A stretch of 38,669 bases of DNA, taken from NCBI GenBank assembly GCA_017454625.1, contig JAFTCP010000063.1:1-38669 (forward strand). Direction: 5' to 3'. Below the pieces are notes generated by a model, which ran no database searches, had not been told where the DNA came from, and saw only the letters and a list, made by a program, of their open reading frames with translations. Positions 6,967 to 19,461 of the stretch are shown here, piece by piece. Position 1 is the first letter of the stretch. Each line of letters opens with the position of its first letter. Source of the stretch: Synergistaceae bacterium. Its GTDB lineage: Bacteria > Synergistota > Synergistia > Synergistales > Aminobacteriaceae. The translations under genes and the position numbers were made by a program.

Positions 6967-7914
6967 TTATGTTTGTTGTCTTAGTTCATCAGCTTTAAGT
7001 CTCACGTCGTTTTCAAGTTTATGCATTAAGTCAGGGTTGCAGAATATCAATCTACAGCACTCGCACGGACAAGGAACTAACTCAGGAAAAACGAAGCCGA
7101 ACTCCTCAGCCTTATTCAAGAACCATTCAAAGCCGATATTCAGCATGATGAAGAACCAATCATCCGAGATTACATAATCTGACAACTCAGCGAGTGAATT
7201 TTGTGAGATTGTCCCGATTTTCAGTCTTGGGATTTCGTTGAAGTATACAGAACAGCACATATAGTAATTCCCGTTGCAATGCATCAGTAACATTTTATCG
7301 AAGTAGCACAGGCTCTTTTTTGCTTGAAAAATATTCAGGAGTTTATCACGGTTAATTTTCCCCTTTGCTCGTCCAGCTGGAAGAAGAGGCCACCAGCCAG
7401 ATTTCGACTTGTCTAGTTCATTCTTGAAAAGTTCTTTGACCCAATGAACATTATTAGTTTCTCGCGTTTCCATGATGGAGATTTCGGATTTCATACCGGC
7501 TTCATTAACAGCATGGACCGCACGTAAGACATTCTCAGCCGGGATCCATTCTTGATGGTAATTGTCAACCGAGAAATGCACCATTCCTACACCAGAATTT
7601 TTCAAGTCTGAAGCAACGCGGGCCGCTTCTTGTTCCGAAGTTCCCCAAAAGCCATTAGTGTAAACAGAAATCTGAAGTCCTCTATCTCTTGCATAAGCTG
7701 AACACTCCAAAACTTGATCATAATATAACAAGGCTTCTCCGCCGGTGAAAAGTATCTGCTTAATTTCAGGAAAGCCCGCCGCTTCATCAATGACGTTCTT
7801 TATGGTCTGAGTATCAAGATGTAAAGTATTTTGCGGGGAACAAGATAAACAGCACATATCACAGCATGCATTACATTTATCAGTCAGAAGTATTGAGATC
7901 TTATCAAATATCAT
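6967..7914 (-). CDS. Radical SAM enzyme with SPASM/twitch-like C-terminus, last gene of the RiPP operon
   Basis: A 315-residue radical SAM protein. The canonical CxxxCxxC gives Cys14, Cys18 and Cys21, followed by FTGGEALLY (SAM-binding GGE) and YTNGFWG. The motif LLPAGRAKG in mid-protein is common in peptide-acting radical SAM enzymes. The C-terminal third has further Cys groups (HCNGNYYMCC, then CPCECC), as expected for an auxiliary Fe-S cluster. The start at 7914 overlaps the stop of a short relic frame. Family members in RiPP clusters epimerise, crosslink or oxidise the precursor; sactionine formation is unlikely here because the candidate core has no Cys. There is no B12-binding domain, so PoyB/PoyC-type methylation is not expected. 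The exact reaction cannot be read from sequence. Confidence 0.85.
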   Translation of the reverse strand: MIFDKISILLTDKCNACCDMCCLSCSPQNTLHLDTQTIKNVIDEAAGFPEIKQILFTGGEALLYYDQVLECSAYARDRGLQISVYTNGFWGTSEQEAARVASDLKNSGVGMVHFSVDNYHQEWIPAENVLRAVHAVNEAGMKSEISIMETRETNNVHWVKELFKNELDKSKSGWWPLLPAGRAKGKINRDKLLNIFQAKKSLCYFDKMLLMHCNGNYYMCCSVYFNEIPRLKIGTISQNSLAELSDYVISDDWFFIMLNIGFEWFLNKAEEFGFVFPELVPCPCECCRLIFCNPDLMHKLENDVRLKADELRQQT

Positions 7915-8037
7915 TGTTGAACCCCTTTTTCAAAACGTCGGCCATCACAGCAGGAGTTATATTTATCGAGATTGCATCGAATATCATTGCTGGTTTCTTT
8001 TGGGATTACAGCTAACTTTACACTTATCAAATATCAT
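7904..8037 (-). pseudogene. Collapsed duplicate of the flavoprotein/radical SAM gene junction (two relic micro-frames)
   Basis: Three successive stop/start overlaps of the type AATGATATTTGA lie at 8037, 7987 and 7914. The first opens a 17-codon frame reading MIFDKCKVSCNPKRNQQ (8037-7984). The second opens a 27-codon frame (7987-7904) that begins MIFDAISINIT, like the radical SAM N-terminus (MIFDKISILLT), and ends MADVLKKGFNNDI, like the flavoprotein C-terminus (IDVMKRGFRNDI). The third is the real radical SAM start. The simplest reading is a former tandem duplication of the flavoprotein and radical SAM genes, later deleted down to its junctions. The micro-frames may still pass ribosomes along to the last gene. 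Confidence 0.6.
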
Positions 8038-8806
8038 TTCTAAATCCCCTCTTCATTACATCAATCTTAAAATCTTTGAAGCTCGCATAATCTCCTATTC
8101 CTCGTGCTAAGCTGATGTTTACGTCATATTCATCTAATGGAAGTTCTAATGTTTCATATACTTTCTGTGAACGCAAATATGAATTTTTGCTGCTTATGAA
8201 GCTGGCTTCTTGCAATGGAGTAATAAACTTTGTGGGATTTTTTACGGCTTCGAGTAACAGGCTGCTGATTTCTTCATATTCCGGCTGAATTTCGGCCTCA
8301 AGATGTAAATTAGGCTTAGCACAATTGAACGCGTAAGCACTCTTGACTACGATTAATCCCATATGCCTCAAAAGGTCCGTAAGATTTTTAGAAACTTCGA
8401 TTGCCTTGCTGGTGTCCGTTACGGCATAAACTACGCCAATTTTCCCGGTGAGTTCAAAAGTGTGCGACCAATAAGCTATTCTGTCAATGACGCACTTTGT
8501 TATCCCTGACATTTCCCAGATATATACAGGAGTTCCGAAGAAAATTATATCGCTGTCGAGAAAATCCTTTTTCAACTGCGCCATATCATCAAGAGAATCC
8601 AGAGGACAAACTCCCTTCATGAAGCATGACGCACATGATTTGCAGAATTTTATATCAAGCTGACTGCCGACAGCCTTCTTGTAAATCACTTCTTCGCCGA
8701 TTTCAGCCGCTTTTTTCGTGAAAACCTCAGCGAGTGAGTCAGAATATTTCAGTGTGCTTGAATTTTTTTCCGCGCATGAACCAACAAACGAGAATACTTT
8801 TATCAT
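8027..8806 (-). CDS. Flavodoxin-fold NAD(P)H-dependent FMN oxidoreductase with Fe-S-like Cys motif, RiPP operon
   Basis: A 259-residue protein of the NADPH-dependent FMN reductase / multimeric flavodoxin superfamily. The N-terminus has the phosphate-binding loop region FSFVGSCAEKNSSTLK. A Cys cluster CKSCASCFMKGVC (Cys55, 58, 61, 67) matches iron-sulfur flavoproteins. FFGTPVYIWEMSG follows the flavin-loop pattern GTPVYxxxxSG. The frame starts with TTG at 8818, overlapping the LanM stop, but ATG 8806 with AAGGG about 12 nt upstream is preferred. In a pathway that dehydrates Thr/Ser, a flavin reductase could hydrogenate dehydrobutyrine or dehydroalanine to D-Abu or D-Ala, as LanJ enzymes do. 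That role is an inference from context; it could also supply electrons to the radical SAM enzyme. Confidence 0.85.
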   Translation of the reverse strand: MIKVFSFVGSCAEKNSSTLKYSDSLAEVFTKKAAEIGEEVIYKKAVGSQLDIKFCKSCASCFMKGVCPLDSLDDMAQLKKDFLDSDIIFFGTPVYIWEMSGITKCVIDRIAYWSHTFELTGKIGVVYAVTDTSKAIEVSKNLTDLLRHMGLIVVKSAYAFNCAKPNLHLEAEIQPEYEEISSLLLEAVKNPTKFITPLQEASFISSKNSYLRSQKVYETLELPLDEYDVNISLARGIGDYASFKDFKIDVMKRGFRNDI

Positions 8807-8814
8807 AATTGAAG

Positions 8815-11406
8815 TCAACCCTTTTGATTTAAGAATAATGCTAAAACTCGGCCAATTCCCAGCGTCCCATAAAAGAACGAAGGATCAAAGCAGCTGTTAA
8901 TTCCTTCCGGCATAATAATAAAAGTCTTGCTCTGGTAATATCTTTCAAGCATCGATGATATTATCTGTTCAGCTTTCTCCAGGTAATAAGGCCGTGAAAA
9001 TTTCTCGTGAGCTTTCAATAGTGATAAAACACTTGCTGAATTCCCCCTGTAGATTGAATCACGATACAACAGATTTTCATTGACACATATGCTTTTGAGT
9101 GCGAGTTCGGCGACATCATTAATAACCTGAGAATTGCTCATGCTGTCTAAAGCCTCAATAGAATAATACGCAATACAACCTGAAAGCGGAGATTTTTTAG
9201 CCAGCCACAAGATTTTTCCATCAGGCCAGCCCGTTAAACTCTCAGAATAACTTTCTTTAAGCGCGCCGAATATTTTCTCGGACTTGACGGCGAACTTTTT
9301 CTCTCCTGTCAGACGATAAATTTTTGCGAGGGCAGCTCCGAGTTTTGTGATTACGTCAAATTGCTGTGAAGAATTATCTATATTCTGCTGATATATTTTC
9401 TCGGAACCATATGCAATTAACTCATCAAGAAGTCTTGAACTGTAAATAGCTTTATCCTTCATCATCAACATTGGCATAATTAAGTCCGCAATATTAAATC
9501 TCTTTGTGTCTAAAAGTTTCTTGTCAGAGATTAAGTGTAAGAATTTCTCCAATGAAACTTTAGAAGACGACAACGCCAAAGCTAAGGCAACTCCGCCAAG
9601 TCCAGCATAAAGGCTCATGGGGATTTTGTTTTGCAATCTCTCAGCGTTGATATTCTGCCAATGATTAATTTGCATATCAAGAGCCTTCAAGCATGTATCA
9701 TAAAGTTTTTCGGCATCATGAAACTCTGTGAAATCCTCGCAACCCTTCAAAGCCGAACAGAACAGAACGACACCGGCCCATGAAGTATAAGATTGGCTTT
9801 TCTCGAAATCCTCGATAATCAGCGCGGGAGAATGCCATAAAGGAAGATTATCCGTTCCGTGAATGACGTGTTCGTTGAGATTGGCCCAGATATTTTTTAT
9901 TGCATCCAGAATATTTTGCTGACTAATTATATTCCCCAAAATCTTGAAGCTGCCCGGAGTTTCAGCATCAAACGTGAGCTGAGAAAATATACTCTTTATG
10001 CAGTCCCTTTCAAAGCGATATTCTTTTTCGGATAATCTATTCAGCCGCATTTTCAGGACATCAAGGGGACTTTGTGAGAAATAATCAGCATTAACAATTT
10101 CGGAAGTGTCGGAGCCGTAAAGAGATTTTTCACCGAGTTTCACGCAAAAATAAGGAATATCCAACTCCGTGAGACATTTGCTTTCATAGTTCACGATATT
10201 TTCAGCGTCAGCTTCTCTTTCATTGGGATCTATGCCGAGATAAAGTTTGTTCAAGACTTGCATTTTAGCATAATTTGAGAGCATTGATGAAGGCTGTAAC
10301 AGTGCTTGCATAATCACAAAATAATACACGGAGGAGTTCATGATATGCCTGACGGGTAAATCTTCATGAAGCCCGCAAATCCTCATGATGTCCTCGCGAT
10401 GTTCAAGCATTCGTTTATATCCTTCAGAAAAGCCGTTGAGAAAATATTCTTCTCTGCCTTCAATAGTGAAAAAAATAACGCCTTCTTTATGTTCAAGCAT
10501 CCTTCTATAACTTTCATCAACAGTTTGAGCAATAACCTCGTCTCGATGTTTTATACAACCTTCAGAAAAGCTATCTTTGCCCTCAACAGTGAAAAAATTC
10601 TCGTCGCGACAATACGGAAGATGCTCTGTGCCGTGAAGAGTAATATACAATGGACTTGATACAGATCTCAGGTAATAATGAACCGGCATTATTGAAGTCC
10701 TTACGACGGAATAATAATAATCGTTGTTCAGCGTCAAAGTTCTTTCGTCAAAATCTCTTGCAGGTGTCTCACCTCGTAAAAATACTTCAGTGTCCACGAT
10801 AACCGGGAATTTTCCGCACGGCATAATATTTGCACACGTAACGTCGCCAATCCCAAGCCCAAGACAAAGAGCCGTAAGAACTCCGAAATTGTAAAAATAA
10901 TCTTCAGCCTCTTTATCTGATGAGAGAGCGTGAGGGATAATTTCTGACATGAAGGCATATTCACTTTCAGCCGTAAGTTTCGGGGTTAACGTGCAGTCAG
11001 AAAAATATCTTGCAACAATTTCACCGTAAAGTAAATCAACGTCGCAGTTATGAGGCTTGTAGTAAAAATTTCCGGCGTTGGTCTCAAGTTTCATCACAGT
11101 TTGCCCGTGTCTTATTGGTTTACTCTTGACTATAAGGCGCTCAACTTTCGTAATTTCCTTGCCGTCTAATAAATCTCTGGATATTCGCTCACGAGATGCT
11201 AAGAAACGTTCAAGAAATTTTGTGATTGCGTCAACAAAATTAATCTCGAGGCGTTTTCTGTAATCTTCAAGCAGGGGATATTTTGTGTCGTCGATTTCAA
11301 TAATATTCAGGCGTTCAAGATAACTCGAACATACATCATCTAAAGCCGTCTGTGAGAATAATTCACGATGATCTGAGAAAATCGCCGTAACTTTATCTAC
11401 ACTCAT
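8815..11406 (-). CDS. Second LanM-like type II lanthipeptide synthetase, zinc site lost and kinase motifs altered
   Basis: An 863-residue LanM-like protein in the usual LanM size range. The N-terminal half is a kinase-like dehydratase: FYYKPHNCDVD (about 114-124), GDVTCANI (about 187-194) and PVIVDTEVFL (about 201-210). The His of the usual DxHxxN loop is replaced by Thr190, and the elimination-site pattern RxIxRxTxxY reads RHIMNSSVYY (353-362). The C-terminal half is a LanC-like toroid (YAGLGGVALALA), but the zinc tracts WCxG and CHG read WLAKKS (734-739) and YRG (786-788). It is a tandem paralogue of the upstream LanM. The start is ATG 11406, with GGAGGT 7 nt upstream, overlapping the upstream stop by 14 nt. 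It may be a weakened enzyme, a specialised partner of the first LanM, or a substrate-binding scaffold. Confidence 0.88.
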   Translation of the reverse strand: MSVDKVTAIFSDHRELFSQTALDDVCSSYLERLNIIEIDDTKYPLLEDYRKRLEINFVDAITKFLERFLASRERISRDLLDGKEITKVERLIVKSKPIRHGQTVMKLETNAGNFYYKPHNCDVDLLYGEIVARYFSDCTLTPKLTAESEYAFMSEIIPHALSSDKEAEDYFYNFGVLTALCLGLGIGDVTCANIMPCGKFPVIVDTEVFLRGETPARDFDERTLTLNNDYYYSVVRTSIMPVHYYLRSVSSPLYITLHGTEHLPYCRDENFFTVEGKDSFSEGCIKHRDEVIAQTVDESYRRMLEHKEGVIFFTIEGREEYFLNGFSEGYKRMLEHREDIMRICGLHEDLPVRHIMNSSVYYFVIMQALLQPSSMLSNYAKMQVLNKLYLGIDPNEREADAENIVNYESKCLTELDIPYFCVKLGEKSLYGSDTSEIVNADYFSQSPLDVLKMRLNRLSEKEYRFERDCIKSIFSQLTFDAETPGSFKILGNIISQQNILDAIKNIWANLNEHVIHGTDNLPLWHSPALIIEDFEKSQSYTSWAGVVLFCSALKGCEDFTEFHDAEKLYDTCLKALDMQINHWQNINAERLQNKIPMSLYAGLGGVALALALSSSKVSLEKFLHLISDKKLLDTKRFNIADLIMPMLMMKDKAIYSSRLLDELIAYGSEKIYQQNIDNSSQQFDVITKLGAALAKIYRLTGEKKFAVKSEKIFGALKESYSESLTGWPDGKILWLAKKSPLSGCIAYYSIEALDSMSNSQVINDVAELALKSICVNENLLYRDSIYRGNSASVLSLLKAHEKFSRPYYLEKAEQIISSMLERYYQSKTFIIMPEGINSCFDPSFFYGTLGIGRVLALFLNQKG

Positions 11407-14119
11407 TCCCGACCTCCGAAATATATTCAAGAATAGCATATCCAATTCCCGGAGTTCCGAAATAAAATGACGAGTCAAAGAAGCTGTTTATTCCGTCAGG
11501 AGTTACGTTGAATGTCCCGTGCTGATTATATTTCTCAAGCATTCCTGAGAGAATTTGCCCGGCCTTCTCAAGACACGAATTATCTTTAAGCTGTCTGTAA
11601 GTCCTGAGCAGAGCCGTGACCGATAAAGCGTTGCCGTTGAAGATTGAATCCCTCGTGAATAAATTCTCTCCTTTAAGCATACTGTCAACAGCCAAGCTCA
11701 AAACTTCATGAACTATTTCTGAGCCCCTGAGAATTTCTGAGGCTGTGAGAGCGCTGTGAAGAACTCCGGCAGACCATGCGGATTTTTTTGCAAGCCATCT
11801 AAATTTTGCGTTATTATCCGGCCATCCCTTCAAGTCTTCGGAGTAATCATCTCTAAGTTTCCTGAAGATATTTATTGACTGCTCAGAAAATTTCTCGTTA
11901 CCCGTGTATGAATATAATACAGCCAACGCCGCAGCTATTCCGTCAAGGCCGTCTTCCCCCGTTAATTTCTCAGGCAAAGTTTTTTCGCTGATATGACCGG
12001 CCAATTTGCTCATGATTTCGTTTATTAAATCCTGAGAATGTCCCTTTTTCTTGACTTCATGTAAAGCCAGAATTAAGCCAGACAGACCATAGCAAACGCC
12101 TAAATCCTCATCGTTATAATTGAGCTTCTCACTCGTCAGCTTCAAGAGCCTGTTGATTATCGCGTCAACTCCGTCAAAGTTTTCATGAGCAATTTCGCCA
12201 AGAGCCGAGAACACTCCGCCTAGACCGGAAAATAATCCTGTTGATATTTTGAGTTTTTCTTCGCGTTCGAATATATCGAATTGGGCCGTAATATGTCTTA
12301 AGCATTCAATCACAATTTTCGAAGCCGGCTCATAAAATCTTGAAAGTTTTGCGCAATATCGTGCTATTCCGGCTTGATTTGTAATAAAAGTTTCGGACGG
12401 CTTAGTTGACCCCAAAGATGACGCGCTCGACAGCCACATTACAAAGCCGTTAGTCATGTGAATTTGAGCGTTTATTATGTCGTCAAAAATTTTCATGGCA
12501 ATATCCCGGCATTCCTGAATTTTTATTTTACGTGAAGGAATTGTAATTATCTGCTTTTCGTACTCTTCGTAATCACTTGGAACTTGCCTGAAAATATCCC
12601 TGATAACGTCCTCTTCAAATCTGAGTTCTTTTTCCGAGAGAATATCAAGATTTTTATACATGGCTTCTTTCGGGCTTTGAGTGAAGTAATCTTTATACAG
12701 GACATCGCTTGTGTTTTCGCCGCAAACATCATGCCCGGACGAGTAAATGCAGTAATACGGAATATCGCCCTGAATTAAAGCAGACTGTTCATAAGCTACG
12801 AAACTTTCACGACCCTTTTGATTATTGTAAAAATCATACGGAATATACAACTTTTTCAGGACTTCGGCTTGGGCTTCCCTTGAGGTCATAGCTTCGGACG
12901 CGTACAAATAGCCCTGCATGTATGAATAATAATCCGTGTTCCTCATGATGAAGCGGACGCAGATATTTTCATGACTTTCAAACATGAGCTTTATATCGTC
13001 CCTGAACTTAAGAACTCGTGAATATCCCTCTTTGAAGCCGGCAATAAATTCTTCTTCGTGTCCTTCGATATTAAAATTTCTGCCGTCATATACAGGAGTG
13101 TTATGATTTTTTTCGCTGATACAATGTAACGCGCTGATCATAGGCCCGTTATGCACACGCAAAGGAAATACACAGGTCTGTTTTACCCAGTGAGAGAAGT
13201 CCTGATAAATAAATTTTCGTTCGATTCTGCTTGAAGTTTCTCTAGCTTTGATTATCGTCTCGATGTCCGCAGCAGACGGCTTAACTCCGCAGGCAATAAT
13301 ATTTTCCTCGTGCATGTCCGCACTTCCAAGCCCATGAAAAACAGCCGTAAGTGCCCCGAAGTTATAATAATATTTCCCGATTTCTTGAATATTATTGACT
13401 TCTTCATAGACAAGTTCAGACACAAAGGCGTAACCTTGACCCTCAACAACTTTTGCGGCACAAGTGAACTCCGAGAAATATTTTGAGATAAGCTCGTAAT
13501 AAAACGAATCTAATCCGCAGTCATGAGGCTTGTAAAAGAAATTCCCCGCGTCAGTCCCAACTTTCATAACTATTCGGCCATGCCTGTGAGTGTCCGCAGA
13601 ATTTCCAGAAAGATATAATATTTTCGTAATCTCCCTGCCGTCTAGGAGCTGTTCAGAAATTTCGCGGGTTGAAAGCGATAATCTCAGGAGAAATTCATTC
13701 ATGCTGTCCGTAAAATTCTTCCTGACGTTCCCATCATATTCGCCTAACACGGGAGAATATTTATCACGGAAATATTGACTTGAAAAGCCGCCCGTAATTT
13801 CCCTCGCGCGGTTTAATGCCTTGTTCAAGCTCTCTTTGTTTTCTTCCGGGAAGATTACAGCTTCATCCGCGTTATTTTCTTTCAGGATTTCCCGGATCTC
13901 AGCAATAATTATATTTGAGTATAACAGCTTCATTCTTGCCATATAATTCTTGACCATACAGCTTTTAGCTTCGTCGGTGAACTGGGGCAAAGAAGACGGG
14001 ACATTGGCGAAAATCCCGCGAACTAAATCTTCAGCTTCGGACATAATATTATCGAAACATCCTGACTCATCAAGAAAATTTTTCCAGAAGTTAACCACCT
14101 GTTCTTGTCTTGACGGCAT
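11393..14119 (-). CDS. LanM-like type II lanthipeptide synthetase with intact dehydratase motifs but no cyclase zinc site
   Basis: A 908-residue LanM-family protein. The dehydratase half looks competent: FFYKPHDCGLD (194-204), SADMHEENI (266-274), SAADIETII (282-290), and the phosphate-elimination pattern RFIMRNTDYY (389-398). These phosphorylate Ser/Thr and eliminate phosphate to give Dha/Dhb. The C-terminal LanC-like half keeps its toroid repeats (FSGLGGVFSALG, CYGLSGLILALH, FYFGTPGIGY). However, the zinc tract WCxG reads WLAKKS (775-780) and CHG reads FNG (827-829), so no Cys/Cys/His ligand set remains. It should dehydrate but not catalyse zinc-assisted thioether formation, which matches the Cys-free core of the putative precursor. 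The start at 14119 follows AGGAGAT, immediately after the methyltransferase stop. Confidence 0.92.
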   Translation of the reverse strand: MPSRQEQVVNFWKNFLDESGCFDNIMSEAEDLVRGIFANVPSSLPQFTDEAKSCMVKNYMARMKLLYSNIIIAEIREILKENNADEAVIFPEENKESLNKALNRAREITGGFSSQYFRDKYSPVLGEYDGNVRKNFTDSMNEFLLRLSLSTREISEQLLDGREITKILYLSGNSADTHRHGRIVMKVGTDAGNFFYKPHDCGLDSFYYELISKYFSEFTCAAKVVEGQGYAFVSELVYEEVNNIQEIGKYYYNFGALTAVFHGLGSADMHEENIIACGVKPSAADIETIIKARETSSRIERKFIYQDFSHWVKQTCVFPLRVHNGPMISALHCISEKNHNTPVYDGRNFNIEGHEEEFIAGFKEGYSRVLKFRDDIKLMFESHENICVRFIMRNTDYYSYMQGYLYASEAMTSREAQAEVLKKLYIPYDFYNNQKGRESFVAYEQSALIQGDIPYYCIYSSGHDVCGENTSDVLYKDYFTQSPKEAMYKNLDILSEKELRFEEDVIRDIFRQVPSDYEEYEKQIITIPSRKIKIQECRDIAMKIFDDIINAQIHMTNGFVMWLSSASSLGSTKPSETFITNQAGIARYCAKLSRFYEPASKIVIECLRHITAQFDIFEREEKLKISTGLFSGLGGVFSALGEIAHENFDGVDAIINRLLKLTSEKLNYNDEDLGVCYGLSGLILALHEVKKKGHSQDLINEIMSKLAGHISEKTLPEKLTGEDGLDGIAAALAVLYSYTGNEKFSEQSINIFRKLRDDYSEDLKGWPDNNAKFRWLAKKSAWSAGVLHSALTASEILRGSEIVHEVLSLAVDSMLKGENLFTRDSIFNGNALSVTALLRTYRQLKDNSCLEKAGQILSGMLEKYNQHGTFNVTPDGINSFFDSSFYFGTPGIGYAILEYISEVGNECR

Positions 14120-14120
14120 G

Positions 14121-15029
14121 TTAAATATCTCCTGTAACTAAAATATTCGTATAGCCGTTCATTTCCCAGATTTCGTTTTCGTTGGGATTGGCCCGGTAAT
14201 ATTCACATTTCATCCTCAAAAGTTCCCTGAAACGTTCAGCGTCTTCCTCAGTAAAAAACTCTTTCATCTCTTGAAGCTTCATGAATGTCTCTAATTTCTT
14301 CAGCTCTGAAGTCTCGTAAAGTTCAAGCCAGCGTTTTTTAATCTCAATGGGAGTTGCAGCGTTCGAGAACGAGAATACTTTACCGAGTGGATAAGCACAT
14401 ACGTTTTTCAGGCCGTGTGTCGCAAAGAAATTCGGAATAGCGGAGGGCTTTAATTCTGAGACATATTCTGAGCGAGGGTTGATTTTATCGTAAGCTGCTT
14501 CAAGTTTTGCACTCAGCACGAAAAAATCTTTAGCCCAAGCCACAAAACATCCAGGCGGGTAATTCCCATAACGCATCGTTTCCGGCCAATTCACCGACAT
14601 ACCCGTAATCGAAGCAACTCGGCCTCCAGGACGTAAAACCCGTTTCATCTCAGCTAAAACTTTTTCGGGCTCAGGCGCACTCGTAAAGAACGTATGACTT
14701 GCGACAACATCAAACGAGGCATCATCAAAAGGGAGACTTCGAGCATCTCCCATTACGAAGTCTATATCGAGATTTTCACGTTCGGCAAAAACTTTAGCGC
14801 TTGAGATAAAATTTTCGTCGAGGTCAAAACCTGTTACGCTGACATTTGGCCCTGCATGCTTAAGAAATCTGCTGAAGAAACCGCTTCCGCAAGCAACATC
14901 AAGAATTTTGCTGTCGTCTTTAACTCCACACCATTTGTAAATCAACGGGGCATAATCCGGGACAACAAGCTCTAAACGGGAACGCTCAAGAAATTCCGGG
15001 TTCTGAAAATATACAGACCATTGAAGCAT
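14121..15029 (-). CDS. Class I SAM-dependent methyltransferase in the RiPP operon
   Basis: A 302-residue UbiE/Methyltransf_11-type enzyme. SAM motif I is LDVACGSGFF (43-52). Motif II is the acidic FDLDE (about 70). Motif III-like tracts FVMGDARSLPFDDASFDVV and VLRPGGRV are present. The first residues (MLQWSVYFQNPEFLERSRLELVV, with a break before the fold) show no extra domain. It lies 3 nt after the YcaO stop and 1-2 nt before the first LanM, so it belongs to the operon. The ribosome site CGGAGAG supports ATG 15029. Possible targets are the N-terminal amine, a side chain or a thioamide/thiol of the modified peptide; sequence alone does not choose. Confidence 0.88.
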   Translation of the reverse strand: MLQWSVYFQNPEFLERSRLELVVPDYAPLIYKWCGVKDDSKILDVACGSGFFSRFLKHAGPNVSVTGFDLDENFISSAKVFAERENLDIDFVMGDARSLPFDDASFDVVASHTFFTSAPEPEKVLAEMKRVLRPGGRVASITGMSVNWPETMRYGNYPPGCFVAWAKDFFVLSAKLEAAYDKINPRSEYVSELKPSAIPNFFATHGLKNVCAYPLGKVFSFSNAATPIEIKKRWLELYETSELKKLETFMKLQEMKEFFTEEDAERFRELLRMKCEYYRANPNENEIWEMNGYTNILVTGDI

Positions 15030-15032
15030 AAT

Positions 15033-16889
15033 TTATCTCTCCGGCATAAGCTCACGCAGCATAGCTAACATACTTTCCTGCGATACGTTATCTTTGTTCA
15101 TGGCCCTAATGATTTTTCCGTACATTTCCCGCTCGAATTTGTGAATGCATTCTTTACCGGCCAATTCGCAATTGTCGCAGTCAAAGCAGTTCATGTGAGG
15201 GAAATTCAGCTCCATAATCCTTGATAAATCCTTAGTCTCGTTGATTATCCGGCTGACTGTCTCGCCGTCATAAAGCGTTATTAAAAGTTTGTGGGCCTCT
15301 TCGCTTGAAAGTCCATTCTTAAGACCTCTGACATACGCAATCATAGCCCTGAGATAGCATATCTCTCTTGCATCTGCCTCAGCTCTAAGCATCTTCGTGA
15401 AAAAATGTTCTGACGTATCATAATCACCGAGCTTCAACGCGAGAAAAGCCCCGATATTGTTTGACTTCATTCTCTTTCCTCTGAATGGGCGTGCTAAGAA
15501 AAATGCGATCTCATTGCCAATTTCAGACTCCTCACAGAAGCGAATATATCTCAGGAGCTTTCTCGCGTCTTGTTCTGAAAGATACGGGAATTTATCACAC
15601 TCAGGCATCAAATCCAGAAGAGTAATCATTGAACGCAGACGAATATCGGCATTCATTCCTTGTTCAGCTTCATCATGAAATTCGTCATGGTTAACTTCAC
15701 TCATTCCCGGAACCAGAATATAGCATGCAGGGAAACCCAAGAATGAAACATCACGCACTAATATAGAAAATCCTTCACGACGCAATAATCCCAGCATATT
15801 TTGTAGAAGCTCTTTGTTGCTGGACTTATCCGAAAATCCCCAAGGGACGAACTCCCAATCAGGCTTTCTTGTTATCAAGTCATAGGGATATATTCCCCGC
15901 CCGTCTTTCAGTGTGTTTGTCTCATTATGGAAAGAATTGGTCTGAGCTTTTGAGCCGATTTTGCAGAACTTAGTGAAGTATTCAATTTTTACTGCGCTCT
16001 GTACGGATTCAGTGAGAGTTCTCTCTACAGCAATTGCAAACGATGGATGACTTCCCAATTTTACGCACAAATATCCTGTCTCCTGATCCATTATCAACGA
16101 AGCGGCAACAGGAATTCCGCGCCCTAATGAGCAGTCGCGCACTGAGACTTTATAGCGTCCGCTTCTCTCGAAGTCTTGTATCAGTTTATAAATCGAAAAT
16201 TGCTTAAGATAATCTCTCGGCACTTCAGGCGGAACAACTTTACCGCTTAAGACCATAGAGTTAACCCAGCGTTCAAATATTTCCGACAGACCTTGAACCA
16301 TAGCTTCTTCGAGCGTATTTCCTGCTGCCATTCCGTTTGAGGCGTATACAATAGTTATAAATCTGAAGGGGAGCCATTTAATTTGTCCGCTTAAGGGATC
16401 TGCAAAAGGAACTGCCGGGATTTTATCATCATCAACGCCGCTCAGGCTTTTATGAATTTTCAGGATGAGTGCTTTTTGCTTTAATCTTTCAGTTATTCCG
16501 AACTGCTTGAAGATAATATTAAAAAATTCGCTGTCCTGATCTAATATCTCATCAACAGTCATGAGCTTTTCATCCGGGAAGAAATTAAATCCTGTTTTGC
16601 TTATCTCGTCCCGACACGTGTACTCAGGGAATATCCACAGAAGATTATTCTGCATTCTTTCAGCGAGTTCGGCAAAAGCACTGGCGGCGGCATATCGTTT
16701 GTCCGTTCCTTTCCCGTTAGTCCCGACATTTGTAGGATATAAAGTTACGCGGTTGCTTACGGCTCCTTCAAAGTCGTTATTCATCCATTGGAGAACCGGA
16801 AAAAGTCCTGTGTTGTGCATAATGCTTTGAATTTTGAAAATTGTAGCTTCTGGTGAGTTATCTTTATGTTTTGAGTAGTTATCTGACAT
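15033..16889 (-). CDS. YcaO-domain protein with C-terminal helical region and Cys cluster
   Basis: A 618-residue YcaO-family protein, first enzyme gene after the precursor. The ATP/Mg-binding YcaO motifs are visible: SAFAELAER (70-78, Sx3ExxER), EAMVQGLSEIFER (195-207) and ERTLTESVQ (289-297, ExxxxExxQ type). YcaO enzymes activate backbone amides for azoline, thioamide or amidine formation. The C-terminal third resembles E. coli YcaO in being helical and TPR-like (about 475-560). It adds a Cys group, Cys568, 571, 574 and 581, that could bind metal. There is no C-terminal PxPxP and no E1-like, ocin-ThiF or TfuA partner in the window, so cyclodehydration is not assured. AAGGA lies about 10 nt before ATG 16889. 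Confidence 0.85.
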   Translation of the reverse strand: MSDNYSKHKDNSPEATIFKIQSIMHNTGLFPVLQWMNNDFEGAVSNRVTLYPTNVGTNGKGTDKRYAAASAFAELAERMQNNLLWIFPEYTCRDEISKTGFNFFPDEKLMTVDEILDQDSEFFNIIFKQFGITERLKQKALILKIHKSLSGVDDDKIPAVPFADPLSGQIKWLPFRFITIVYASNGMAAGNTLEEAMVQGLSEIFERWVNSMVLSGKVVPPEVPRDYLKQFSIYKLIQDFERSGRYKVSVRDCSLGRGIPVAASLIMDQETGYLCVKLGSHPSFAIAVERTLTESVQSAVKIEYFTKFCKIGSKAQTNSFHNETNTLKDGRGIYPYDLITRKPDWEFVPWGFSDKSSNKELLQNMLGLLRREGFSILVRDVSFLGFPACYILVPGMSEVNHDEFHDEAEQGMNADIRLRSMITLLDLMPECDKFPYLSEQDARKLLRYIRFCEESEIGNEIAFFLARPFRGKRMKSNNIGAFLALKLGDYDTSEHFFTKMLRAEADAREICYLRAMIAYVRGLKNGLSSEEAHKLLITLYDGETVSRIINETKDLSRIMELNFPHMNCFDCDNCELAGKECIHKFEREMYGKIIRAMNKDNVSQESMLAMLRELMPER

Positions 16890-16918
16890 TGTGAATTTCC
16901 TTAATAATTTTGGTGAAT

Positions 16919-16970
16919 AAAAATTGCTGAGGAACCGTTACCGAAAAAACACGCCAGCTTCCCCAGCAAT
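16919..16970 (-). terminator. Terminator-like hairpin between precursor and modification genes
   Basis: On the minus strand ATTGCTGGGGAA (16970-16959) pairs with TTCCTCAGCAAT (16934-16923), a 12-bp stem with one G-T wobble, followed by ATTTTTATTC. It sits after the precursor stop and before the YcaO start. A leaky terminator here would give more precursor mRNA than enzyme mRNA, a known arrangement in RiPP operons. Confidence 0.75.
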
Positions 16971-17031
16971 CATAAAGTTTAACTGCTTACGAAATAGATT
17001 TTGCGCTTACGAGATCTATTATGCCTTGAGC

Positions 17032-17199
17032 TTAGATCATCTGTGTAGCAGTCTGGATCGTCGTAACAAGCGACTGGACTGTCTTCGTAATAGTCTCAAT
17101 AACTGTATCGACACCTGTGCCGCCTGCAACCTTCGCGAGGTCTCCGTTGTTAAGTTCGCCGAATGTGTTCAGAGCGTCTGCAACCTTAGCAACTGCCAT
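17032..17199 (-). CDS. Putative RiPP precursor peptide, double-glycine leader, Thr-rich Cys-free core
   Basis: A 55-residue frame from ATG 17199. The leader (residues 1-27) is helical, starts MAVAKVADALNTF and ends GELNNGDLAKVAGG, a typical ELxxxxLxxVAGG cleavage region for type II lanthipeptides and Nif11/NHLP-like leaders. The core (28-55) starts TGVDTVIET and ends TIQTATQMI; it has 9 Thr, 1 Ser, no Cys, one Lys, one Asp and one Glu. ATG 17199 has GAAGGA (17215-17210) 10 nt upstream and a possible promoter just before. The frame stays open upstream (FTKDEF precedes the Met and looks leader-like) but lacks a normal start there; ATG 17240 would reach it only with one extra base in an A run. 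It is the first gene of the operon. No homologue search was possible, so the assignment rests on motif and position. Confidence 0.72.
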   Translation of the reverse strand: MAVAKVADALNTFGELNNGDLAKVAGGTGVDTVIETITKTVQSLVTTIQTATQMI

Positions 17200-17230
17200 C
17201 GCAAACTCGTCCTTCGTGAAGCCTGACTGT

Positions 17231-17258
17231 ATTTTAACATATATTTTACATAATGCAA
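17231..17258 (-). promoter_or_regulatory. Possible promoter of the RiPP operon
   Basis: On the minus strand TTGCAT (17258-17253) and TAAAAT (17236-17231) are 16 nt apart. Transcription would start near 17224, giving a short leader with GAAGGA before ATG 17199. The -35 match is weak, so this is only a candidate. Confidence 0.4.
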
Positions 17259-17292
17259 GCGCAAATTAACAATTTCATGTAAAATTTTTGAG

Positions 17293-17460
17293 GAAGTGTA
17301 TACGCTTCTTCATGTATTGCACAGTGAAGACGCAATCAGCAAGCATTAGTCAAGTCTCGCGCCTCTTCATGAATTGCACAGTCAAGACGCAATCAGCAAG
17401 CATTAATCAAGCCTCGCGCCTCTTCATGTATTGCACCGTAAAGACAAAGCCGACGAGCAT
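17293..17460 (-). repeat. Three tandem copies of the TRAP permease 3' end (57-bp period)
   Basis: Copy 1 (17460-17407) is the true gene end, coding MLVGFVFTVQYMKRREA and stop. Copy 2 (17406-17350) codes LMLADCVLTVQFMKRRET and stop. Copy 3 (17349-17293) codes LMLADCVFTVQYMKKR and runs on. The period is exactly 19 codons, so reading frame and stop position are kept. Copies 2 and 3 are closer to each other than to copy 1. Confidence 0.9.
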
Positions 17461-19461
17461 TAACCCTATCAAGTCGCTCACAAGACCGGGAACTAACATG
17501 CTCAAGCCTCCAGCGCAGATTATCACTCGCAGAGTTATATTCATTGGACTGTAAAGATAACCGTTCAACGCCGCCGCAACCCCGAAAATTCCCAGTAAAG
17601 CTGTAGCGCATATTAAGATTATCTGACAGGCGATTAAAATTTGTGTAAGAATTGGCCCGGCATTAGCAATCTCAATTATCGGCTGGACGTTCTCAAATAA
17701 CATTGCCGGAGTAAACGCGAAAATATACGGAACAATGAAAGCTCCTATCGCAAGTTTCGTAGCGTTAAAAGCCGTCTTCATCGGAGGAGCCTTAGCAATT
17801 GCACTCCCAGCATACGCGGCCAATGCAACCGGAGGCGTAATATCCGCGACAATTCCGAAGTAAAACACGAAGAAGTGAGCGCATAATTTTTCAATCCCGA
17901 TTGCCGGAGCCATCAAGATTGGTGCGCAGGTTGCCGCCATTATGCAATAGTTCGCGGTCGTCGGAACTCCCATTCCAAGAATTATACAGCAAATCATTGT
18001 GAGAATTAATGCGATAAACGCATGACCTCCGGAAACGTTTACAACCATCGTGATTAACTCGCTCGCAAGCCCCGTTGAAGTTATGCATCCAGCTACAAGC
18101 CCGGCCATAGCGCACGCAACAGCTACGGTTATTGTCCCTCGTCCGCCAGCCTCGAGAGCATCAATAATCTTCTTGGGTGTAATTCGCTCGTCGGAGTTGA
18201 ATAGTCCTACGAAGATTGCGAAGCCTATTGCTATTGCCGCCGAGAATTGCATAGTGTAAATGTTCAACGAGACCATTACAACAAGAATTATTAACGGAAG
18301 CAATAAATAAATTTTCGGCAGAAGTGAGATTATTCGCGGGAGCTCCTCTTTGGGAATTCCCTTCAAGCCCAACTTCTTAGCCTCAAGATGAACGGCAATG
18401 TAAATTCCCGTGAAATATAACACTGCCGGCAAAATCGCTTTCAACGCAACCTGAGAATAAGGAATTCCCATGTATTCGGCCATCAAGAACGCAGCAGCTC
18501 CCATTATCGGCGGCATAATCTGTCCTCCTGTTGATGCGGCGGCCTCGACAGCTCCGGCAAATTCAGGCTTGTAACCCGTTCGCTTCATCATCGGAATTGT
18601 TACGCTCCCAGTCGTTACGGTATTCCCAACGCTTGAACCTGAAACCATCCCGCACAAAGCTGATGAAATTACGGCAACTTTCGCGGGGCCTCCTGCTGAT
18701 GCTCCGGCTATGGCGTTCGCTAAGTTGATGAAAAATGTCGATATTCCCGTTCGTTCGAGAAACGCTCCAAAGATTATGAACACGACAATATATTTCGCGC
18801 ATACTTCAATCGGCGTGCTCCTAAGTCCGTCGCCGGTCGAGTAATACAAATCGTAAATAACTTTTCCAAATCTCACAGTTGAAAACGCATAGACCATCAG
18901 CGCACCGACCACACACAAAATCGGAATTCCTACACACCTTCGGCAAAGTTCCATCGTTGAAAGTATCGCGAGGACAGCCATAGCAATCATAATGTGATAG
19001 TTCGGATTTCGCGGGCTTGTTACTCTCAGTGCAAGTTTGATTATGCTCTCAGCGTTGGCCGCAAAATAGAAGAATGGGATTGCTCCGGCCAGCATTATTA
19101 TAACGTCGTAAAATGGAATTGAATTTACTCGCGGTGTCGTGTCAAGCGTCAAAGGAATTGAAAGCGAATCACTCAATCCAGGCTTAATTTCCCCGTGAGC
19201 TTTCCTGATTGGATAATGCAGATAGCCTATGATTAATATCAATCCCAGAAAAATATTTAATCTTATTTCAGGCATCGCCGTACTGAAAAGTGTTACATAA
19301 ATGCAATACACTGAGAATAAGGCCGACACCCAACGAACTATTAAAGCGGGTGTTCCTTCCCAAATTCGCACGTTCGACTCACGGTCATATTTCTTCATTA
19401 CGGCTTCAACGTCTGCTTCAATGTTCTCAATATCTTGATGCGTCAATTTTTCTTCACTCAT
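17407..19461 (-). CDS. TAXI-type TRAP transporter fused 4TM/12TM permease
   Basis: A 684-residue membrane protein in which the small (DctQ-like) and large (DctM-like) permease parts are fused, as is usual in the TAXI subgroup. It works with the extracytoplasmic TAXI receptor encoded just upstream and uses an ion gradient to import carboxylates or amino acids. Many hydrophobic segments are present. Typical DctM tracts include SGSSVGNTVTTGSVTIPMMK, GGQIMPPIMGAAAFLMAEY and GMGVPTTANY. I choose ATG 19461 (MSEEKLTHQD) because AGGAGG is 7 nt upstream; the open frame begins 14 codons earlier. The substrate cannot be told. The 3' end is duplicated downstream. Confidence 0.93.
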   Translation of the reverse strand: MSEEKLTHQDIENIEADVEAVMKKYDRESNVRIWEGTPALIVRWVSALFSVYCIYVTLFSTAMPEIRLNIFLGLILIIGYLHYPIRKAHGEIKPGLSDSLSIPLTLDTTPRVNSIPFYDVIIMLAGAIPFFYFAANAESIIKLALRVTSPRNPNYHIMIAMAVLAILSTMELCRRCVGIPILCVVGALMVYAFSTVRFGKVIYDLYYSTGDGLRSTPIEVCAKYIVVFIIFGAFLERTGISTFFINLANAIAGASAGGPAKVAVISSALCGMVSGSSVGNTVTTGSVTIPMMKRTGYKPEFAGAVEAAASTGGQIMPPIMGAAAFLMAEYMGIPYSQVALKAILPAVLYFTGIYIAVHLEAKKLGLKGIPKEELPRIISLLPKIYLLLPLIILVVMVSLNIYTMQFSAAIAIGFAIFVGLFNSDERITPKKIIDALEAGGRGTITVAVACAMAGLVAGCITSTGLASELITMVVNVSGGHAFIALILTMICCIILGMGVPTTANYCIMAATCAPILMAPAIGIEKLCAHFFVFYFGIVADITPPVALAAYAGSAIAKAPPMKTAFNATKLAIGAFIVPYIFAFTPAMLFENVQPIIEIANAGPILTQILIACQIILICATALLGIFGVAAALNGYLYSPMNITLRVIICAGGLSMLVPGLVSDLIGLMLVGFVFTVQYMKRREA

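Follow-up and report, generated by a model that had tools for sequence, protein, structure and literature searches.

The window, meaning the whole 38,669-nucleotide stretch of DNA that was analysed, holds seven genes on the minus strand between positions 6967 and 17199, in the order precursor peptide, YcaO, methyltransferase, LanM1, LanM2, FMN_red flavoprotein and radical SAM protein. The first-pass annotation had described a compact minus-strand operon headed by a double-glycine peptide; all seven genes were in place, and their domains matched. The features are listed below in the direction of transcription.

17243 to 17272, minus strand: TTGTTA-18-TAAAAT, resembling a promoter, upstream of the precursor gene; 9 out of 12 positions match the consensus, a match about equally common in shuffled sequence.
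17032 to 17199, minus strand: precursor peptide with leader MAVAKVADALNTFGELNNGDLAKVAGG and core TGVDTVIETITKTVQSLVTTIQTATQMI; sole double-glycine motif match in the window, Cys-free, C-terminal Ile.
16890 to 17031, minus strand: 142-nt gap between the precursor and YcaO genes, with a hairpin and then a U-run; possible attenuator between the precursor and the enzymes.
15033 to 16889, minus strand: YcaO, 618 aa; PF02624 at E 1e-52, 4Q84 (Escherichia coli YcaO) at E 2e-46.
14121 to 15029, minus strand: LahSB-type carboxyl O-methyltransferase; 6UAK (LahSB) at E 1e-87 over residues 3-300.
11393 to 14119, minus strand: LanM1; all tested dehydratase residues kept, cyclase zinc site and catalytic His lost.
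8815 to 11406, minus strand: LanM2, a paralogue of LanM1; zinc ligands and the equivalents of D252, H254 and H349 lost; start at ATG 11406 behind GGAGG.
8027 to 8806, minus strand: FMN_red flavoprotein, probably a dehydroamino-acid reductase of the LanJB type; start at either TTG 8818 or ATG 8806.
6967 to 7914, minus strand: radical SAM protein resembling YydG-type peptide epimerases; CX3CX2C motif and a Cys aligned with YydG C223.

All seven reading frames were intact and tightly packed, with plausible ribosome sites for most of them. Gaps of 1-3 nt separated the consecutive YcaO, methyltransferase and LanM1 genes, LanM2 overlapped LanM1 by 14 nt when started at ATG 11406, and about 110 nt separated the flavoprotein and radical SAM genes. 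The coordinates first assigned to the genes were sound overall, with the exception of the LanM2 start, for which ATG 11406 is likelier than TTG 11478. The hairpin in the 142-nt gap had an MFE of -28.6 kcal/mol (z -1.1), not clearly stronger than those of shuffled sequences. No protease or transporter gene was found within the operon. We consider it almost certain that this is a real RiPP operon; a sequencing or frame artefact was ruled out by the intact frames and the coding score.

The precursor has a 27-residue leader of the double-glycine type and a 28-residue core with nine Thr, one Ser and no Cys, in agreement with its earlier description as Cys-free and Thr-rich. For the unmodified core, the calculated [M+H]+ is 2992.61. 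The full double-glycine motif (L-12, L-7, V-4, A-3, G-2, G-1) occurred in one frame of the whole window, against an average of 0.05 matching frames in mononucleotide-shuffled windows. Using the codons of the flanking genes, the precursor scored 0.357, compared with 0.106 for the 95th percentile of wrong frames; the signal obtained with operon codons was weaker (0.149 versus 0.121). A second copy of the precursor was not found in its own genome. The C39 protease LahT150 reads leader positions V-4, L-7 and L-12 (PMC6363468), and the corresponding residues of this leader fit that recognition rule. The precursor lacks an NHLP leader, which rules out a proteusin.

We aligned the two LanM proteins with nine other LanMs and compared their residues using CylM numbering. 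We take the CylM residues from D252 to T512 named here to be dehydratase residues, and C875, C911 and H912 to be the zinc ligands. The ligands are replaced in both proteins, as had been claimed for them, by S783, F827 and N828 in LanM1 and by S766, Y810 and R811 in LanM2 (numbered from the TTG start). All three were kept in 8 out of the 9 other LanMs, the exception being a Mesorhizobium protein with one ligand. This Mesorhizobium soli LanM (L008, 6392-9694) has A971, C1018 and S1019 at the ligand positions, of which only C1018 is a ligand-type Cys. LanM1 also has Asp at the position of the cyclase catalytic His. All nine dehydratase residues tested were kept in LanM1 (D176, H178, K197, D268, H270, N273, D285, R389 and T395, equivalent to D252, H254, K274, D347, H349, N352, D364, R506 and T512 of CylM). 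With its dehydratase residues kept and its zinc site lost, LanM1 can thus be a cyclase-dead dehydratase, and we predict with high confidence that it acts as a dehydratase.

LanM2 has lost the equivalents of D252, H254 (a gap) and H349 and has Ser in place of CylM T512. Both proteins matched LanM models, LanM2 with a score below the curated cut-off. They share 35% identity and were sisters in the tree with full support, the LanM2 branch being the longer (1.34 versus 0.57). Judged from these comparisons, LanM2 is a degenerate paralogue of LanM1, and it may leave the dehydratase system partly inactive. At 10399-10516, LanM2 contains an imperfect repeat of some 30 of its own residues that LanM1 lacks. 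The cyclase part of LanM1 scored 96 bits to LanM and 44 bits to LanKC, and canonical LanMs also scored 45-69 bits to LanKC; by score, the cyclase parts would be decayed class II domains, not visibly class III. Two hallmarks of class II lanthipeptides, a zinc-binding cyclase and core Cys, are both absent here, and the LanM dehydratase residues are present in LanM1. Because the core has no Cys and the LanMs have no zinc site, we are very confident that no lanthionine forms; an ordinary lantibiotic was ruled out on the same grounds.

The residues that we take to bind ATP and Mg are conserved between the YcaO protein and 4Q84. The operon encodes no E1-like, ocin-ThiF or TfuA partner for YcaO, and the missing TfuA rules out a thioamide pathway. 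Its genome has one YcaO, and no YcaO was found at E<=1e-20 in the other 187 of 188 genomes of the phylum set (probably Synergistota), which comprised apparently one order and about a dozen families. YcaO probably acts on the core peptide. A Cys cluster, CFDCDNCELAGKEC, lies near the C-terminus of this protein (15033-16889) and is a possible metal site. The methyltransferase was 47% identical to LahSB over 295 aligned residues, at full length. Peptides that end in Met, Ile or Val are methylated by LahSB at their terminal carboxylate, and the enzyme does not require the leader (PMC11285071; PMC10952241). The C-terminal Ile of the precursor is of a residue type accepted by LahSB, and we predict with good confidence that the product ends in a methyl ester.

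Relatives of the flavoprotein were encoded beside or close to LanM genes on plasmids of P. sordellii, Macrococcoides, Priestia, S. aureus (two) and L. sakei (lactocin S), and one adjoined LanB/LanC on another P. sordellii plasmid (seven contexts examined in all). The clusters include lactocin S (LasM), lichenicidin-type and mersacidin-family examples; of the two weakest matches, the one examined lay in a generic setting. Identity to the LanM-associated relatives was about 28-35%, and the tree did not fix the place of the flavoprotein. A W-x-H segment is common to the flavoprotein and the LanM-linked group, and the generic relative does not have it. One Paraclostridium sordellii plasmid (L014, 9206-15945) carries a LanM, two lichenicidin-type peptides, a LanJ-like flavoprotein and a C39 transporter beside an agr-like quorum-sensing set. 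LanJB reductases belong to the NAD(P)H-FMN reductase family (PMC7268733; PMC10373908), and lactocin S contains Ser-derived D-Ala (PMC5808125). Class II lanthipeptides with such reductases (carnolysin, bicereucin and, by its flavoprotein, lactocin S) combine a LanM with an FMN_red-type reductase that converts Dha and Dhb to D-Ala and D-Abu. Their LanMs make lanthionine, unlike those of the window, where Cys and the zinc site are missing. Like them, the window has an FMN_red gene that adjoins the gene of a lanthipeptide dehydratase and has relatives in clusters of that sort, and Dhb reduction is the predicted activity.

The flavoprotein might instead donate electrons to the radical SAM enzyme or YcaO, in which case the pathway would end at a dehydrated, epimerised peptide. 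FMN_red and flavodoxin-fold proteins can donate electrons and radical SAM enzymes need reduction, points that count for this reading, and the unsettled placement in the tree is compatible with it. However, relatives of the flavoprotein adjoin LanM genes at loci with no annotated radical SAM gene nearby, so electron donation to a radical SAM enzyme is unlikely to be their role there. We regard an electron-donor role as doubtful, and Dhb reduction by the flavoprotein as likely from the company its relatives keep.

The radical SAM protein scored 157 bits against TIGR04078, below the 300-bit cut-off, and matched YydG structures at E 3e-29. We number the hydrogen-donor Cys of YydG as C223, counting along the 8AI chains; in PMC5808125 it is given as Cys 233. 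A Met of the radical SAM protein aligns with YydG D210. YydG makes D-Val and D-allo-Ile (PMC10373908). Epimerisation of peptide residues is likewise a likely role for the enzyme, given its resemblance to YydG. The likeness to epipeptides (YydF/YydG) lies in this YydG-like enzyme with its hydrogen-donor Cys; the score is below the YydG family cut-off, and the yyd operon, as described in PMC5808125, has no dehydratase or YcaO. The gene roles first proposed were right as to domain kinds, but the flavoprotein had not been recognised as a LanJ-like reductase, the radical SAM protein as a YydG-like epimerase or the methyltransferase as acting on a carboxyl group, and the degenerate state of LanM2 was missed.

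It had also been claimed that no characterised class has this set of enzymes, which did not hold, since zinc-less LanMs beside a YcaO were published in 2020 (lah) and 2023 (dehydrazoles). A survey found 49 LanM+YcaO nodes in six networks, with every LanM lacking the zinc ligands (PMC10676384); one of the 49 nodes is a YcaO+LanM cluster that had been reported earlier, for which the survey refers to Huo 2020 (lah). The lah cluster of Lachnospiraceae bacterium C6A11 (LahM1/LahM2, LahSB, LahT) resembles the window at least in its two unusual LanMs, LahSB methyltransferase and double-glycine leaders, and, by the account in PMC10676384, in being a YcaO+LanM cluster with zinc-less LanMs. Its precursors number seven to nine and carry Nif11-type leaders, and it encodes a C39 transporter, LahT; in the window there is a single precursor, with a short leader, and the operon lacks a transporter. 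Npn of Nostoc punctiforme (NpnJA) has a Cys-free, Ser/Thr-rich precursor, a dehydratase and a reductase, and is thought to yield linear D-amino-acid peptides; its reductase, however, is of the LanJA type, and the accessible sections of PMC5808125 do not mention YcaO, radical SAM or LahSB proteins for it.

For carnazolamide (cca), a dehydrazole, the LanMbC, YcaO, dehydrogenase, radical SAM epimerase and methyltransferase were reconstituted (PMC10676384). Since the substrate in cca is rich in Cys, an enzyme set of this general make-up does not require a Cys-free precursor. The likeness to the window lies in a zinc-less LanM-type dehydratase (CcaM, a LanMbC), a YcaO, an oxidoreductase, a radical SAM epimerase and a SAM methyltransferase (PMC10676384). 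By contrast, cca has an NHLP leader, a Cys-rich core, an azoline dehydrogenase, a Cys S-methyltransferase, an S8 peptidase and one LanMbC, whose cyclase domain is called class III whereas that of the window scores as decayed class II. In the window the core is Cys-free and the leader short, there are two LanMs (one degenerate), a LanJ-like flavoprotein takes the place of the azoline dehydrogenase, and the phylum is a different one.

A dehydrazole-like route would have YcaO first make (methyl)oxazoles from Thr and Ser, the flavoprotein oxidise the azolines, and LanM1 dehydrate only pre-azole residues, as CcaM does. A zinc-less LanM, YcaO, flavoprotein, radical SAM protein and methyltransferase do stand together in the operon as in cca (PMC10676384), and the core has a Thr-Thr pair at residues 19-20. 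That pair is, however, the sole case of a core Thr or Ser directly ahead of another Thr or Ser. The flavoprotein is an FMN_red protein with LanM-linked relatives, for which an azoline dehydrogenase role is only putative; the operon has no E1-like or RRE cyclodehydratase partner and the core no Cys; and the leader is of the short double-glycine type, not nitrile-hydratase-like. We consider this route unlikely. Since lah and the dehydrazoles cover the general idea and the window differs in details, we regard the operon as a variant of a pathway type already described. What is new here is the gene combination, the degenerate LanM2 and the phylum.

We did not find a close homologue of the whole operon in the sets searched (genome_contigs, 188 phylum genomes, 392 relatives, 398 genomes of another phylum, probably Bacillota, and viral contigs). 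LanM1 matched only the distant Mesorhizobium LanM in genome_contigs, and in the 392 genomes the LanM profile picked up LanMs from two congeners, as well as a distant LanM in G378 with no other operon genes nearby. The methyltransferase had no match in the viral contigs, the 392 relatives or the 398 other-phylum genomes, the last of which shows little as that set had no positive control. Three congeners (loci L009, L010 and L011; genomes G034, G035 and G012) carry ordinary-looking class II LanM genes with Cys-bearing Nif11-like precursors; the zinc ligands are intact in both complete proteins, and a radical SAM/SPASM gene follows in L010.

The operon sits between prs and a TRAP gene. In congeners G022 and G031 the prs terminator adjoins the TRAP gene 3' end with nothing between (an empty site), and congener G094 has other DNA there, so the operon is a cassette at the prs-TRAP site. 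The simplest reading is that the cassette was gained at this site; loss in other congeners is the alternative. At the operon junction (17303-17473), the 3' end of the TRAP permease gene recurs past the stop codon as a 57-bp unit in 2.5-3 copies, which may mark cassette arrival or a rearrangement. The same genome has a second RiPP locus (L027, G000:C17:4000-16000), with a Nif11-like Cys-containing precursor, a radical SAM/SPASM protein and two ABC transporters, one of them of the C39 type; this C39 transporter could process the peptide in trans.

The lost dehydratase residues and long branch of LanM2, an operon devoid of transporter and protease genes and the absence of the insertion from congeners would all suit a decaying or non-functional cluster, with both LanMs degenerate and the operon recently imported without a transporter. 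Yet the seven frames are intact and tightly packed, most with plausible ribosome sites, the active-site residues of LanM1 and YcaO are kept, the methyltransferase is full length and the precursor has coding codon usage. Decay is therefore very improbable in our estimation.

The reading that we favour, with moderate confidence for the full proposed pathway, is a RiPP operon for one peptide, of the kind that unites zinc-less LanM, YcaO and LahSB proteins. From the gene content, residues, homology and neighbourhoods of relatives, we infer the chemical steps, their order, the export route and the biological function as follows. LanM1 would phosphorylate and dehydrate core Thr and Ser, perhaps aided by the degenerate LanM2. 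The LanJB-type flavoprotein would hydrogenate some Dhb to D-2-aminobutyrate, the YydG-like enzyme would invert at least one residue, with Val or Ile as the best guess, and YcaO would activate a backbone amide. The LahSB homologue would methylate the C-terminal Ile carboxylate, and a C39 transporter from another locus of the genome would cut the leader after GG. The likeliest product is linear, with no lanthionine, dehydrated Thr, some Dhb reduced to D-Abu, epimerised Val or Ile, a methyl ester and a YcaO-dependent change. The first-pass reading, in which neither the peptide nor its enzymes can support lanthionine formation and the product is a dehydrated, further processed linear peptide, is the best one, given the missing Cys and zinc ligands. 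The peptide is probably membrane-active or antimicrobial. A bolder proposal, which we hold to be rather improbable, is a subclass in which a cyclase-dead LanM and a degenerate LanM2 form an obligate pair, and dehydration, D-Abu reduction, epimerisation, a YcaO change and methylation on one linear Cys-free peptide would give a D,L-patterned membrane peptide outside the proteusins.

These findings add an uncommon type of RiPP pathway to a phylum in which this YcaO was absent from all other genomes searched, and combine the pathway with a reductase and an epimerase predicted to form D-amino acids. With one 28-residue core and six enzymes, the operon is a compact system for testing if a LanM without zinc ligands depends on a degenerate partner and how a YcaO acts without its usual partner beside a dehydratase.
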